Under the pieces are notes generated by a model. The model saw only the letters and a program-made list of their open reading frames with translations. It was not told where the DNA came from and did not search any database. A DNA stretch of 64,000 nucleotides from Cystobacter ferrugineus (GTDB lineage Bacteria; Myxococcota; Myxococcia; Myxococcales; Myxococcaceae), in NCBI RefSeq assembly GCF_001887355.1, contig NZ_MPIN01000001.1:186001-250000 (forward strand), read 5' to 3'. The position numbers were made by a program, and so were the translations under genes. This document shows positions 9,040 through 32,729 of the stretch, piece by piece; the first letter of the stretch is position 1, and each line of letters begins with the position of its first letter.

Positions 9040-11124
9040 ATGAAGCGCCTGCTTCTCTCCGCCTGTTTGCTCGGCGCCGCTCCCGCGCTCGCCGACGAGG
9101 GCATGTGGACGTACAACAATTTCCCCTCCGCCACGGTCAAGGCGAAGTACGGCTTCGAGCCCACCCAGGAGTGGCTCGACACCGTCCGGTTGTCCTCGGC
9201 CCGCTTCGGCTACGGGTGCTCGGCGAGCTTCGTCTCCGCGGATGGTCTGGTGATGACGAATCACCACTGCGCCCGTGGCTGCATCCAGCAGCTGTCCACC
9301 GCCAAGAGGGATCTCATCGCCAACGGCTTCTACGCGAAGACTCCCGCCGAGGAGCTCCAATGCCCGGCCCTGGAGATCAACCAGCTCCAGGAAATCACCG
9401 ACGTCACCGAGCAGCTCAACACCGCCACCCGGGGCCTCACCGGCAAGGCCTACGCCGACAGCCTCAAGGCCGAGATGGCCAAGCTGGAGAAGGCCTGCAC
9501 CACGAGTGAGCAGGTCCGCTGCGATGTCGTGACCCTGTACCAGGGCGGCCGCTACAACCTCTACAAGTACCAGCGCTTCCAGGACGCGCGGCTCGTGTTC
9601 GCGCCCGAGCATGCGATCGCCTTCTTCGGCGGCGACCCGGACAACTTCGAGTTCCCCCGGTACGACCTGGACGTGGCGTTCGTGCGCGTCTACGGCAAGG
9701 ACGGCAAGCCCGCCCGGCCCAGCCACTACTTCAAGTGGTCCGAGCACGGCGCCAAGGAAGGCGAGCTCACCTTCATCTCGGGCCACCCGGGCAAGACCTC
9801 GCGCGGCCTCACCATCTCCCAGCTCGAGTTCCTCCGGGACGTGTCGCTGCCCCGGAATCTCTTCCGGCTCGCGGAGCTTCGCGGACTCGTCACCGAGTAC
9901 CAGAACCGCGGCGCCGAGCAGAAGCGCACCTCCAACAACCTCCTCTTCGGCGTGGAGAACAGCCTCAAGGCCAACAAGGGCAAGCTCGAGCAGCTCGCCG
10001 ACAAGAACTTCTTCGCCCAGAAGCTCGCCGCCGAGCAGGAGCTGCGCTCGAAGGTCAACGCGGATCCGAAGATGAAGGCCAAGTACGGCATGGCCTGGGA
10101 CGAGATCGCCCGCGCCCAGCAGACCTACCGCAACATCCTCAAGGAGTACGAGGCCCAGGAAGGCGGCCCGTACTCGCAGTTGTTCAACCTGGCGCGCACC
10201 CTGGTGCGGGCCGCCGACGAGCTGCCCAAGCCGGATGCCGAGCGGCTGCGGGGCTTCAACGACGCCAGCCTGCCCACCCTCAAGCTCCAGGCGATGAGCA
10301 AGGCGCCCATCTACCCGGAGCTGGAGGTGGCCCAGCTGACGTTCTCGCTCACCAAGATGCGTGAGGATCTCGGGCCGGATCACCCCTTCGTGAAGAAGGT
10401 GCTCGGCAAGGAGTCTCCGCGCACCCTGGCCACCCGGGTCGTCAAGGGCTCGAAGCTGGCCGACCTCAAGGTGCGCGAGCAGCTGTTCTCCGGTGGCAAG
10501 GCGGCCATCGCGGCCTCGAAGGATCCGATGATCCAGCTGGCGCTCCTGGTGGATCCCGATGCCCGCGCCATCCGTACCCGGTATGAGACCGAGGTCGAGG
10601 CAGTCATCCGCAAGAACAGCGAGCTGGTGGCCCAGGCCCGCTTCGACATCTACGGCACCAAGCTCTACCCGGATGCCACGGGCACCCTGCGCCTGTCCTT
10701 CGGCGCCGTGAAGGGCTACCCGGAGGATGGCAAGCAGGTGGCGCCCTTCACCTTCATGAGCGGTACCTTCGAGCACGCCACCGGTGAGGAGCCGTTCGCC
10801 CTGCCCAAGAGCTGGCTCGCCGCGCAGAAGCAGCTCTCGCCCAACACCCCGATGAACTTCGTCACCACCAACGACATCATCGGCGGCAACTCGGGCTCGC
10901 CCGTCATCAACCAGAACGCGGAGATCGTCGGCCTCGTCTTCGACGGCAACATCCAGTCGCTCGGCGGAGACTACGGCTACGACGAGACCGCCAACCGCGC
11001 CGTCTCCGTCCACAGCGACGCCCTCATCGAGGCGCTCCAGAAGGTCTACAAGGCCGATCGCATCGTCCAGGAGCTGCGTCCCGGCACCGCGTCCACCGGC
11101 AAGGGCGGCTCGGGTCTGCGGTAA
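9040..11124 (+). CDS. Secreted S46 dipeptidyl-peptidase (DPP7/DPP11 family)
   Basis: Serine exopeptidase releasing dipeptides from peptide N-termini, acting in the periplasm or at the surface. A Sec signal peptide (MKRLLLSACLLGAAPALA) precedes the mature chain. The chymotrypsin-like active site is visible as TNHHC (His about residue 76) and GGNSGSPV (Ser618). The residues after the Ser motif read FDGN; in characterised members Gly here accompanies a preference for hydrophobic P1 residues and Arg accompanies acidic P1, so DPP7-like specificity is inferred. 694 residues is a normal length. It fits the protein-degrading predatory lifestyle. Confidence 0.9.
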   Translation: MKRLLLSACLLGAAPALADEGMWTYNNFPSATVKAKYGFEPTQEWLDTVRLSSARFGYGCSASFVSADGLVMTNHHCARGCIQQLSTAKRDLIANGFYAKTPAEELQCPALEINQLQEITDVTEQLNTATRGLTGKAYADSLKAEMAKLEKACTTSEQVRCDVVTLYQGGRYNLYKYQRFQDARLVFAPEHAIAFFGGDPDNFEFPRYDLDVAFVRVYGKDGKPARPSHYFKWSEHGAKEGELTFISGHPGKTSRGLTISQLEFLRDVSLPRNLFRLAELRGLVTEYQNRGAEQKRTSNNLLFGVENSLKANKGKLEQLADKNFFAQKLAAEQELRSKVNADPKMKAKYGMAWDEIARAQQTYRNILKEYEAQEGGPYSQLFNLARTLVRAADELPKPDAERLRGFNDASLPTLKLQAMSKAPIYPELEVAQLTFSLTKMREDLGPDHPFVKKVLGKESPRTLATRVVKGSKLADLKVREQLFSGGKAAIAASKDPMIQLALLVDPDARAIRTRYETEVEAVIRKNSELVAQARFDIYGTKLYPDATGTLRLSFGAVKGYPEDGKQVAPFTFMSGTFEHATGEEPFALPKSWLAAQKQLSPNTPMNFVTTNDIIGGNSGSPVINQNAEIVGLVFDGNIQSLGGDYGYDETANRAVSVHSDALIEALQKVYKADRIVQELRPGTASTGKGGSGLR

Positions 11125-26891: not shown

Positions 26892-28601
<1,710 letters not shown>

Positions 28602-29037: not shown

Positions 29038-29730
29038 ATGGCCACCAGGCGCCCCGCCCGCCGCGAGAAGACCCCGCGTGCTCCCCGCTCCCCCTCCCCC
29101 ACGTCCTCGCGGCGCCGCTCCCCCGAGCAGGCGCGGGAGGCCATTCTCGAGGCGGCCGAGCCGCTGCTGCGTGAACGGGGGCCGGACGGGGTGGGACTGC
29201 AGGCGGTGGCGCGCGCCGCGGGGGTGAGCCACGCGCTCGTCACGCACTACTTCGGCACCTACGAGGCGCTGGTGGGCGAGGTGTTCCAGCGCCGGGCCCG
29301 GCTCCTGGCGGACGGCTTCTGGCGAGGGATGCTCGAGTCCAGGGAACCCCCCGACACTGGCCAGTGGCTGGAGCTCTTCTCGCCCATCCTCCAGGACGAG
29401 GGGAACGTGCGGCTGATGGCGTGGGCACTGCTCACCGGGCGTGGCGAGCACCTGTCCCTGGGCCAGGGGCTGCGCCGGGTGATGGATGTGCTGGAGGCGC
29501 AGGTCGATCGCGTCGCCACGGTGCAGGGGCAACCGCCCCCATCGCGCGAGGCCCTGGAGATGACGCTGCTCGTGGGGCTGTGCGCCGCGCAGGGGTACAC
29601 GCTCGCCCGGCACTTGCTGCTGCCCGGGCTGGGGCGGACCGAGGACGCTCAGGCGGATACGCGCTTTCGCGCCGTGCTCTCCGCGCTCCTCGATGCCGCC
29701 CTCGGACTGGAACCGCCCAGGGGGCGCTGA
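29038..29730 (+). CDS. TetR-family transcriptional regulator
   Basis: 230 residues. After a basic Pro/Ser/Arg-rich tail of about 33 residues comes a TetR DNA-binding domain: QAREAILEAAEPLLRERG, then the helix-turn-helix VGLQAVARAAGVSHALVTHYF. The remaining 130 residues are the helical ligand-binding and dimerisation domain. ATG at 29038 with GGAAGG upstream; the frame is open further upstream without TetR-like sequence. Its targets are unknown; the adjacent acyl-CoA genes are a possible set because many TetR proteins sense acyl-CoA, but this is inference. Confidence 0.82.
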   Translation: MATRRPARREKTPRAPRSPSPTSSRRRSPEQAREAILEAAEPLLRERGPDGVGLQAVARAAGVSHALVTHYFGTYEALVGEVFQRRARLLADGFWRGMLESREPPDTGQWLELFSPILQDEGNVRLMAWALLTGRGEHLSLGQGLRRVMDVLEAQVDRVATVQGQPPPSREALEMTLLVGLCAAQGYTLARHLLLPGLGRTEDAQADTRFRAVLSALLDAALGLEPPRGR

Positions 29731-29741
29731 GCGCCGCGAAG

Positions 29742-30308
29742 CTACGCGCGTCCCGTCCCTTGTTGCATCCACTCGTGGAGCCGGTGCTTGAGCCCCTCGA
29801 GTTCGTCACAGGCACCCAGCACGCCCTTCCACTTCCCGGCGAGTTCGCGCATGGCCCAGGCTCGTCCCTGACCCGGGTCGAGTTTGGGTGCCCGCTCGGC
29901 GAGAAACGGATGGGCGTAGCGCTCCTTGGGGTGGTGTTCCCGGCGAATCTCGCTCCATGCATCGGACAGGGTGTCCCGATGGGCCGCGAGCATCCAGACC
30001 TCGATCTCCTCGATGGCGAGGCAGACGAAGAGCCGTTGCTGGGTGCTCTCCAGCACGGTGGCTCGTTCCGGTCTCTTGGGATCGCCATCGCGGTCCACCA
30101 TGATCAGGAACAGGTCGACCATCGGGTAGGTCTGGATGACGTCCGCGATGATGGTGGCGTCCAGCGCCTGGGCGATGCCGCGCAGTCGTGGCCTGGAGAG
30201 AACCTGGACCCGCGCCTGCTTCCCGAGGTCGGCCAGGAGCCGCTCGACGATGGGCTTGAGGATGTACTGGTCGAGCGTCGGATCCTCTGGGATCACGAGC
30301 ACCTTCAC
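29742..30308 (-). CDS. Toprim-like partner of an AAA ATPase (candidate defence nuclease)
   Basis: 188 residues, no signal peptide. The layout resembles a Toprim/OLD-type nuclease: an early Glu in VLVIPEDPTLDQYIL (E8), the acidic strand FLIMVDRDGD (D72, D74) and an acidic helix AIEEIEVWMLA (E100, E101, E103). GTG at 30308 overlaps the ATPase stop by four bases; an in-frame ATG at 30326 is possible. The tight overlap indicates the pair acts as a unit, like split ATPase/Toprim antiphage systems. Family assignment is by motif only; a metal-binding domain of another type cannot be excluded. Confidence 0.6.
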   Translation of the reverse strand: MKVLVIPEDPTLDQYILKPIVERLLADLGKQARVQVLSRPRLRGIAQALDATIIADVIQTYPMVDLFLIMVDRDGDPKRPERATVLESTQQRLFVCLAIEEIEVWMLAAHRDTLSDAWSEIRREHHPKERYAHPFLAERAPKLDPGQGRAWAMRELAGKWKGVLGACDELEGLKHRLHEWMQQGTGRA

Positions 30309-31546
30309 AGGGCCATCTCCATCCAACCCGTGGTGAACAGCTCGTCGATGCTCTTGTGCTGGGCCACTTCGCCAAAGTGCGGCAGATCTCCCAGGCGACG
30401 TACGAGCGTGCCTTCGTGCTCCGGAACCCGGCCGAAGACGAGGCTGTTACGCAGGGTCGCCTGATTCAACCACTGGAGGATGACGGGAGAATGGGTGGTC
30501 GCGATGACCTGGATGCCGCGCTCACGGGTCACTGCTTCCAGGTACTCCACCAGCAACTTGATGCGGGTCGGATGCAGGCCCGAATCGAGTTCCTCCAGGA
30601 GGATGACCGAGTCCTTGGGCGCGAGTCGGAGTGCCAGGAGGGTTCCGAGAAAGCGGAGTGTGCCGTCTGAAGCGCTCCTCACGGACACCCGCCGTCCGCT
30701 CTTCTCGACGAACATGGCCATGACATCGCCCAGTTCCTTGACCTCCACGAAGTCGATGTCGGCGATCTCAGGCGCACAGAACTCGGCCAGCCAGTCCGTG
30801 ATCGCCCGCTTGGCCTCGGCATCATCGCAAAGTTGGGCAAGTACTCCGGAGATGTTCCGCCCCTCGTCTCCCAGAGGTGCATTCCTGCGGCCGTAGCCGC
30901 GCATCGCCGAGGGTTGAATGTTCAGGAACTCGATTTGAGACAATGCTTCCTCGAGTCCGAACGGGGGAACCAGTACCTCCTGCCACCTCCCGCTGCGTGC
31001 AGGTGGCTGAGGCCACATGAATACACTCCTGTACGCACTGACCAACTTCGTCTCAGGATCGGCGTCAGCACCTGAAAACAGCCCAGGGGGTACGCTTATC
31101 TCGATACGGTCTCCTCGAAGAGCACCCGTGCGAGTCGTCTCTCCTCCCTCTGGAGTAAAGCTCTCTTCCTCCAAGAGCGGATGAGGGACTGTCCGGCACG
31201 TCATTCGATGGGTGAGGCTGACAACGTGCTCGGTGACGGGCTCATTGTCGAAATCCCAGGCCAGCACGGACCAGTCACTTTCGAGCGTGAATCTCGAAGT
31301 CCCCAGCCGCGCGGCCTCGGGGGCGCCCCCGCGCAGTCCGCGCCACGCATCAGGGGAGACGCGTTGCTCCCCGTTGAGGATCTGCTCCAGATCGAGGTTG
31401 AACGAGTTGGCGTGCAGGAACTGCAACGCGTCCAGGAAGTTGCTCTTGCCGGAGGCATTGGCCCCGAGGAGCAACGTCAGCGGGGCGAGCGGGACGTCCT
31501 CATCGACGAAGCTCTTGAAGTCCTTGAGGCGCAGCCTCTTGAGCAC
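30305..31546 (-). CDS. AAA (AAA_21/OLD-like) ATPase
   Basis: 413-residue ABC-type ATPase of the SMC/OLD-like class. Walker A is GANASGKS (28-35), the signature-like motif SASDGTLRFLG (291-301), Walker B VILLEELDSGLHP with the catalytic Glu, and the switch His in ATTHSP (352). The start is MLKRLRLKDFKSF from GTG 31546 with GAGGTGG upstream. No membrane segments or transporter partner. It begins 37 bases after the acyl-CoA dehydrogenase and overlaps the Toprim-like gene. Codon third positions look less GC-rich than in neighbours, suggesting acquisition. Such pairs commonly act in phage defence; this one is untested. Confidence 0.82.
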   Translation of the reverse strand: MLKRLRLKDFKSFVDEDVPLAPLTLLLGANASGKSNFLDALQFLHANSFNLDLEQILNGEQRVSPDAWRGLRGGAPEAARLGTSRFTLESDWSVLAWDFDNEPVTEHVVSLTHRMTCRTVPHPLLEEESFTPEGGETTRTGALRGDRIEISVPPGLFSGADADPETKLVSAYRSVFMWPQPPARSGRWQEVLVPPFGLEEALSQIEFLNIQPSAMRGYGRRNAPLGDEGRNISGVLAQLCDDAEAKRAITDWLAEFCAPEIADIDFVEVKELGDVMAMFVEKSGRRVSVRSASDGTLRFLGTLLALRLAPKDSVILLEELDSGLHPTRIKLLVEYLEAVTRERGIQVIATTHSPVILQWLNQATLRNSLVFGRVPEHEGTLVRRLGDLPHFGEVAQHKSIDELFTTGWMEMAL

Positions 31547-31583: not shown

Positions 31584-32729
31584 TCAGCCGAACAGCTTGA
31601 ACGTCTCGCGGGCGATCACCAGGCGCTGCACCTCGCTGGTGCCCTCGTAGATGGTCTGCACGCGGGCGTCGCGGAAGTAGCGCTCCACGGGGAACTCGTC
31701 GATGTAGCCGTAGCCGCCGTGGATCTGCACCGCCTTGTCCACCGCGCGGTTGGACATCTCGCTGGCGAACAGCTTCGCCATGGACGCCTCGCGGGTGAAG
31801 GGCTTGCCCTCCTCCTTGAGGCTCGCGGCGCGCAGCGTGAGCAGCTCCGCCGCCTCGAGCTCCGTGGCCATGTTCGCCATCATGAAGCTCAGGCCCTGGA
31901 ACTCGCCAATGGCCTGGCCGAACGCCTTGCGGTCCTTCGCGTAGCGCACGCTCGCGTCCAGCGCCGCCCGGGCCACGCCACATGCCTGCGAGGCAATCCC
32001 GATGCGCCCACCATCCAGGGCGATCATCGCCAGCTTGAAGCCGTCCCCCTCCTTGCCCAGGAGGTTGTCCGCGGGAATGGCGCAATCCTCGAAGGTCAGG
32101 CTCACCGTGTTGGACGCGCGCAGGCCCATCTTGTCCTCGTGCTTGCCCACGTGCAGCCCCGGCGTGCCGCCCTCCACGATGAAGGCGGAGATGCCCTTGC
32201 CGCCCTGCCCTCCCGTCTGCGCCCACACCACCATCACCCCCGCGTACTCGCCCGAGGTGATCCACTGCTTGCTGCCGTTGAGCACCCACGTGTCCCCGCG
32301 CCGCACCGCCGTGGTGCGCATGGCGCGCGGATCCGAGCCCGCGTGCGGCTCGGAGAGCGCGAACGAGCCCGCCACCGCCTCGCCCGACGTCAGCCGCGTC
32401 ACGAACTTCTCGCGCTGCGCGTCGTTGCCATACGTGTGGATGAGCTCGGCGCACATGTTGGTGACGGCCATGGTCACCGACGTCGACGCGCACGCCGCCG
32501 ACATCTCCATCATCGCCAGCGAGTACGCCACGACGCCCGCCTCGGCGCCCCCGTACTTCGCGGAGATGTTCACCCCCATGAGCCCGAGCGAGGCCAGCTC
32601 CCGGTACAGCTCCGTGGCGAAGGTCTCCTCCCGATCGAAGGTGCGCGCCTGGGGCGCCACCCGCTCGCGCGCGAACTTGCGCGCGGTGTCCCGGATGAGT
32701 GTCTGGGTCTCGGTCAGTTCGAGGTTCAC
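31584..32729 (-). CDS. Acyl-CoA dehydrogenase
   Basis: FAD-dependent dehydrogenase introducing the alpha-beta double bond in acyl-CoA. FAD/substrate motifs FALSEPHAGSDPRAM and WITSGEYAG are present, and the catalytic base lies in TIYEGTSEVQR near the C-terminus. 381 residues, the short/medium-chain size. It follows the AgmX-domain gene by 12 bases and is the second of two such dehydrogenases in the cluster. Chain-length specificity cannot be read reliably. Confidence 0.92.
   Translation of the reverse strand: MNLELTETQTLIRDTARKFARERVAPQARTFDREETFATELYRELASLGLMGVNISAKYGGAEAGVVAYSLAMMEMSAACASTSVTMAVTNMCAELIHTYGNDAQREKFVTRLTSGEAVAGSFALSEPHAGSDPRAMRTTAVRRGDTWVLNGSKQWITSGEYAGVMVVWAQTGGQGGKGISAFIVEGGTPGLHVGKHEDKMGLRASNTVSLTFEDCAIPADNLLGKEGDGFKLAMIALDGGRIGIASQACGVARAALDASVRYAKDRKAFGQAIGEFQGLSFMMANMATELEAAELLTLRAASLKEEGKPFTREASMAKLFASEMSNRAVDKAVQIHGGYGYIDEFPVERYFRDARVQTIYEGTSEVQRLVIARETFKLFG

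Follow-up and report, generated by a model that had tools for sequence, protein, structure and literature searches.

Gene content of the locus

Two overlapping genes on the minus strand were found in the window (the whole stretch of 64,000 nucleotides of Cystobacter ferrugineus DNA that was analysed) between an acyl-CoA dehydrogenase gene and a convergent regulator gene. Features are given by position in the window:

26892..28601, minus strand: S1-domain protein gene, rpsA-like; the gene directly after the dehydrogenase gene in 14 of 26 family loci read
29038..29730, plus strand: TetR-family regulator gene, convergent (TetR_N, E=1.2e-11); other border of the cassette
29742..30308, minus strand: partner gene, predicted Toprim-like, divergent DUF4276/HEC-01B-like; 188 aa, GTG start at 30308, stop at 29742
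30305..30308, minus strand: 4-nt GTGA overlap of the ATPase and partner genes
30305..31546, minus strand: ATPase gene, ABC/AAA_21 (OLD-type), relative of PDC-M07A; 413 aa, GTG start at 31546, stop at 30305; AAA_21 E=1.4e-33, PDC-M07A E=1.4e-67
30947..31297, minus strand: hypervariable middle region of the ATPase (residues 84-200); a candidate sensor of the trigger that has probably been exchanged between congeners
31584..32729, minus strand: acyl-CoA dehydrogenase gene (Pfam); upstream border of the insertion site

The S1-domain protein gene is presumably rpsA and is so called below; the start of the TetR-family gene was picked by comparison with the congener G092. Dehydrogenase stop (31584) and ATPase start are separated by 37 bases, and the TetR-family gene lies 11 bases past the partner gene, converging on the cassette. 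Coordinates, lengths, the 188 partner residues, the four-base overlap and the 37-base gap had all been given correctly in a preliminary description of the locus, as had the identity of the upstream gene. A scan for promoters and terminators between dehydrogenase gene and cassette detected none, with a consensus that may not suit the host; transcription of the pair probably continues from the acyl-CoA operon.

GC3 was compared among ORFs from a crude gene calling with a minimum length of 150 aa. The ATPase gene (0.758) had a lower value than any of the 41 others (mean 0.908, sd 0.045), and the partner gene (0.841) lay above four of them; the lower GC3 first reported for the module is clear for the former and mild for the latter. 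dN/dS was 0.16-0.30 for the two genes of the pair versus 0.07-0.20 for the dehydrogenase gene, which suggests that selection maintains the function of both proteins. Ten other window genes near the pair were searched with PADLOC, and the single match at E<=1e-5 was mad2, given by a tRNA-methyltransferase-like gene (Pfam tRNA_U5-meth_tr); the window was therefore not regarded as a defence island.

ATPase motifs and profile matches

Walker A (G28, N30, S32-S35), signature (S293-D294-G295) and Walker B (E318, E319) were invariant in 14 aligned ATPase sequences including that of the window, in keeping with the intact motifs noted before. Among PADLOC models, PDC-M07A was matched best, ahead of HEC-01A (7.2e-41); AriA models matched at 1.9e-33. 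RecF/SMC-type profile matches were also obtained. The structure model of the ATPase was poor (pLDDT 54). The relationship to PDC-M07A and the hypervariable middle region described below go beyond the preliminary description.

Fold of the partner protein

Residues E8, D9, D13, D72, D74, E101, E103, W105 and P127-K128-E129, among others, were invariant in 13 aligned partner sequences. The acidic motifs proposed earlier thus stand for E8, D72/D74, E101 and E103, but not for position 100, which varies (E or Q). Pfam DUF4276 (PF14103) was matched with E=0.0078 and 16.9 bits, under the curated cut-off of 30.2 bits; three of six scanned relatives matched it at E<=1 and none above the cut-off. PADLOC HEC-01B matched over part of the partner length only (E=3.2e-4) and was matched by five of six relatives (2.6e-5 to 9.2e-4; L034 without match). 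On profile comparison with HEC-01B, the DxD, E-x-W and DPKE stretches aligned in order, at a weak 5.5% probability (E=0.007). No family was obtained from NCBIfam at E<=1 or from PHROG at E<=0.001, the PADLOC models PDC-M07B and AriB gave no match at E<=1, and the partner profile retrieved two chance-level matches (E 0.3 and 4.8) from PDB sequences. A search of a phage record collection returned no match, with the partner of the phage-like contig L036 as query likewise.

The Toprim layout consists of alternating strands and helices with a Glu after strand 1, DxD after strand 3 and an acidic pair after strand 4. The partner model (m45e0eed117d3, 4 sequences; pLDDT 82, pTM 0.80) shows strand 2-6, helix 10-27, strand 33-36, helices 45-60, strand 65-71, helix 78-89, strand 93-98 and then helices to the C-terminus. 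Strands 1, 3 and 4 are followed by E8, D72-x-D74 and E101-x-E103, respectively; both the alternation and the acidic residue placement agree with the layout. With VIA-align, the model was matched to OLD Toprim domains 6nk8, 6njv and 6njw at Z 6.5-6.9 over 158-161 residues (6nk8, 6.9 over 161) and to retron Eco2 at Z 5.8 over 157 residues; OLD Toprim domains spanned the whole partner at Z 5.7-6.9. Non-OLD folds scored as high or higher (PH0156, Z 7.9; PIWI/Argonaute parts, to 7.6; lumazine synthases, to 7.0), and Foldseek against PDB and BFVD gave nothing at E<=0.001. Model topology and motif placement, the weak DUF4276 and HEC-01B matches and the middling OLD Toprim matches, none decisive alone, support the initial assignment, and the modelled partner is likely to have a Toprim fold.

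Comparison with known systems

The pair resembles PDC-M07 in the lineage of its ATPase, in the short gene overlap (4, 8, 8, 1 and 4 nt in five plasmid loci) and in partner size. It differs in the partner, which is Toprim-like and without PDC-M07B match at E<=1, whereas 4/4 scanned plasmid partners match that model at 5.7e-50 or better; profile comparison of the window partner with the five plasmid partners gave 1.1% probability. PDC-M07B proteins have, unlike the window partner, conserved D, E, D, D positions, which are assumed here to be a PIN motif, and weak Pfam PIN matches in two of six scanned (E 0.005-0.03), one of these being better to DUF1697. A PDB search with the PDC-M07B profile returned nothing relevant. 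From these residues and matches, PDC-M07B may be a PIN domain. Two plasmids were inspected, one of Photobacterium (L079:2202-10074) and one of Vibrio (L083:1220-9050); on each, the PDC-M07 pair is embedded in a type I restriction operon, between the S and R subunit genes.

HEC-01 and AAA_21 + DUF4276 pairs likewise have an AAA_21-type ATPase followed by a partner with acidic motifs, but HEC-01A proteins group without the window ATPase, and HEC-01A scores below PDC-M07A. PARIS (AriA + AriB) shares adjacent split genes for an OLD-type ATPase and a Toprim(-like) protein; it differs in that AriB is not matched by the window partner, and AriA, whose profile equals Pfam AAA_21 in length (304 positions), is matched far below PDC-M07A. 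In PMC12409363, hexameric AriA holds AriB and senses Ocr-like proteins, and an AriB glutamate mutant, E26A, is used; PARIS is counted as a split 'class 4 OLD' in PMC10568477. With OLD/Gabija (GajA), the pair shares the two domains and the E ... D ... E-x-E residues, as in the OLD protein Cran1, for which metal binding is predicted at E338, E341, D393, E409 and E411 (PMC12796447). Unlike single-chain GajA, the window has two genes, with acyl-CoA dehydrogenase and TetR neighbours and no helicase (GajB).

By profile and tree, the pair combines a PDC-M07A-type ATPase with a Toprim-like partner of divergent sequence. As its partner is no PDC-M07B, it does not count as PDC-M07, and by model it is not PARIS; with regard to HEC-01, the ATPase falls outside the HEC-01A group, and the partner has the partial HEC-01B match only. 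According to PMC12988326, which treats other PDC systems, most of the 'PDC' candidates in PADLOC still await validation, and the resemblance to PDC-M07A is therefore to a candidate system only. A search of a PMC paper collection for DUF4276 or PDC-M07 by name, and for PADLOC together with HEC-01, found no paper.

Insertion site

The insertion-site sample comprised 26 further family loci (L121-L146) and three congeners, out of 70 genomes with a match. In 14/26 loci, rpsA begins about 245-560 bases past the dehydrogenase gene, a distance too short for the cassette. The remaining 12 have no rpsA within the 1.5 kb examined, and different genes follow the dehydrogenase gene. The congeners G091 and G093 carry the pair at the window's site. 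In G092, the flanks are 96-97% identical to the window on both sides and the pair is absent from the site; 3.6 kb with a gene for a 1,091-aa lantibiotic dehydratase (Lant_dehydr_N, 1e-169) lies exactly between the two stop codons. The short dehydrogenase-rpsA spacer and the different cassette at the exact site in a congener support the view, already put forward in the preliminary description, that the pair is an insertion. In the G092 cassette (L035:9676-13286), the lantibiotic dehydratase gene is preceded by a short ORF that, judged by eye, starts near 9818 and has some 52 codons; it could encode the precursor peptide.

Partner-gene relics with 89-91% identity were found in G092 (L023:9599-9694, 96 bases) and in G091 (L024:9597-9660, 64 bases); both adjoin a 77-base sequence common to the two, of which the window genome has a single copy as well (C3:794709-794785). 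The partner fragment of G092 (31 residues at 84%) lies away from the window's site.

Distribution and mobility

A protein search of 195 phylum genomes (E<=0.001) gave 13 genomes with a match and 182 without. A full-length open partner was present in 11/195 (window genome counted); of the remaining two matching genomes, G149 has a broken partner and G092 the partner fragment only. The pair is thus no housekeeping locus conserved in all myxobacteria, the outcome named in the preliminary description as evidence against its reading. The G149 partner (L012:1507-1940) is broken by a frame change and a lost stretch with the ATPase open, in a draft assembly in which an error is possible. In G017 (L032:10422-12053), the ATPase frame is about 135 residues longer at the N-terminus, without Pfam match at E<=1e-5 (fusion or wrong start).

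Further relatives were found in an acidobacterial MAG (64%), Myxococcus dinghuensis (45%), a cyanobacterial (Brasilonema) plasmid (39%) and the phage-like contig L036 (37%), whose partner is 94% identical to that of the Brasilonema plasmid. The 4-nt overlap was present in 14/14 loci examined (window included) and in L036, and ATPase and partner distances over 13 pairs were correlated (r=0.90; 0/5000 permutations as high). On this comparison of sequences, the two genes travel as a unit.

Sites in other genera differ. In G098, the pair lies near a cytochrome-oxidase gene, with similar flanking DNA in G100 and G081; in G057, it is flanked by an amylase gene (with a following gene without assigned function) and a galT-like gene. 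In G058, it lies immediately behind a gene for an HsdR-like type I restriction subunit (L031:2867-5152), with Pfam ResIII and EcoEI_R_C above and NCBIfam EcoAI below cut-off. On L036, the pair is found 53 bases past the tape-measure gene among tail genes; eight neighbouring ORFs compared with PHROG gave three tail families, one portal, one unknown family and three without match.

In the acidobacterial MAG, the pair is followed at a distance of about 0.5 kb by a gene for the RNA-repair methyltransferase Hen1 (L015:5477-6859; TIGR04074, E=6e-217). This neighbourhood, seen once only, is a possible hint at RNA as the target, as a lead only. Hen1 was searched for in G092 and in 12 genomes whose pair is intact or broken; it was found in 2/13, both times far from the pair.

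Hypervariable middle region of the ATPase

Window and G091 share about 95% identity over the locus, except for a stretch at roughly 30955-31300 (ATPase residues ~84-200) that is about 60% identical and contains indels; beyond it, identity recovers sharply. Uncorrected synonymous differences were 0.16 in the N part, 0.61 in the middle and 0.19 in the C part; the threefold rise at synonymous sites argues for replacement by a diverged allele rather than selection alone, and residues 84-200 have probably been exchanged between congeners. GC3 by part was 0.90 (residues 1-83), 0.62 (84-200) and 0.78 (201-413), and similar in G091 and G093. In a search of 189 genomes for a donor, the window and G091 segments each matched only the three congener alleles, so that none was identified.

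The middle was the least conserved part of the ATPase at the protein level in 12/12 close pairs of both partner types (pairs not all independent). Its synonymous rise over the higher flank was threefold only for window/G091, 1.35 to 1.6-fold in three pairs, at most 1.25-fold in five and absent in three; exchange is therefore well shown once, and rapid change is general. Since the ATPase is the sensor in PARIS (PMC12409363), residues 84-200 are read by analogy as a candidate trigger-sensing region.

ATPase groups and exchange of partner kind

The PDC-M07A model at E<=1e-30 identified 30 places in 25/189 phylum genomes. Neighbouring proteins were typed with profiles built in this analysis (E<=1e-3), and 11 of the 30 ATPases had a window-type partner, 15 a PDC-M07B-type partner and none both. 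For the last 4/30 (E 9.8e-32 to 8.2e-31), the next protein matches DUF4276, three above the Pfam cut-off and one at 29.3 bits, just below. The window genome also has a PDC-M07A ATPase with a PDC-M07B-type partner, at C3:40783-42021 (L086).

In an ATPase tree of 42 rows, groups tracked the partner: window-type, 15 rows (92/89), PDC-M07B-type, 17 rows (98/93), and the rest. A reduced tree (37/42 rows, well-filled columns), from which five long or odd rows were left out, gave supports of 97/92, 97/94 and 98/93, with a persisting long-branch warning (HEC-01A with L107/L113). Both trees are unrooted and retain long branches, and neither includes L096, L097 or L083, the last being nearly a copy of L079. 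The five HEC-01A rows formed a 100/100 group of their own with the window ATPase outside; with window-type and HEC-01A rows held as one side, the AU test (p-AU 0.054) gave no rejection at 0.05. Because two of the three ATPase groups have Toprim/DUF4276-like partners, the kind of partner must have been exchanged at least once.

Tentatively, one ABC-ATPase lineage may serve as a chassis with two exchangeable ends. The middle region, swapped between strains by intragenic recombination, would read different phage triggers, and the coupled effector would have been replaced by one of an unrelated nuclease fold (PIN-like in PDC-M07 and Toprim-like here) while the short overlap persisted.

Proposed function and alternatives

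The pair is read, with a probability of roughly 0.6, as a split OLD-ABC + Toprim immunity cassette of two genes, in which an infection-sensing ATPase would gate the predicted Toprim nuclease; family and context suggest the antiphage role. The context counted in its favour comprises the HsdR-like gene before the pair in G058, the tail genes around it on L036 and the type I restriction operons that hold ATPase relatives with a PDC-M07B partner. For assembly, triggering, nuclease activity, substrate and antiphage outcome, the following course is proposed. The ATPase would be sensor and scaffold and would keep the translationally coupled Toprim-like nuclease inactive; that it may hold the partner until infection is suggested by analogy with PARIS, in which the binding of a phage protein ends the hold of AriA on AriB (PMC12409363). 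A phage product would be recognised via ATPase residues 84-200, the state of the ATPase would change, and the nuclease would be freed or activated. It would then cut nucleic acid at a predicted metal site of E8, D72/D74 and E101/E103, and the infected cell would no longer support the phage.

An unlikely alternative is a mobile-element or addiction module, in which the nuclease would be a toxin curbed by the ATPase and the pair would be retained mainly as ATPase loss harms, with phage protection absent or incidental. Two coupled genes of patchy presence on plasmid and phage-like carriers would fit such a module, as would G092, which retains just the partner-gene fragment, elsewhere in the genome, and G149, in which the partner is broken and the ATPase open, as would follow if the cost lay with the partner; a fast-evolving ATPase middle between conserved flanks is, however, not needed by it. 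Quite improbable is a system directed against plasmids or other mobile elements and not against phage. Wadjet likewise combines an ABC ATPase with the Toprim-related JetD (PMC10568477), and the pair is itself carried by a plasmid and a phage-like contig; against this reading, there are two genes only, and mad2 is the sole PADLOC match among the ten window genes nearby. Least probable is an OLD/RecF-like DNA maintenance or repair pair with a cellular role, whose sole tie to the acyl-CoA operon would be its transcription; for this reading the RecF/SMC-type matches and an archaeal OLD protein with a cell-cycle role speak (OLD-family proteins such as Cran1 are not always defence; both PMC12796447), and against it stand the 182/195 genomes without match and the differing sites (acyl-CoA site, cytochrome-oxidase region, beside galT, behind the hsdR-like gene).

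OLD-type ATPases are already known to pair with different nucleases: OLD-ABC ATPases with Toprim, HNH, PD-(D/E)XK or PIN nucleases are described in PMC12839542. The locus adds a resolved case, in which neighbouring groups in one ATPase family have one partner kind each. With the 2023 PADLOC models, the ATPase of the pair is recognised and the partner is not. The window and its congeners provide natural alleles that differ almost solely in one ATPase region, and the three congener alleles make the putative phage-sensing part testable by region exchange.
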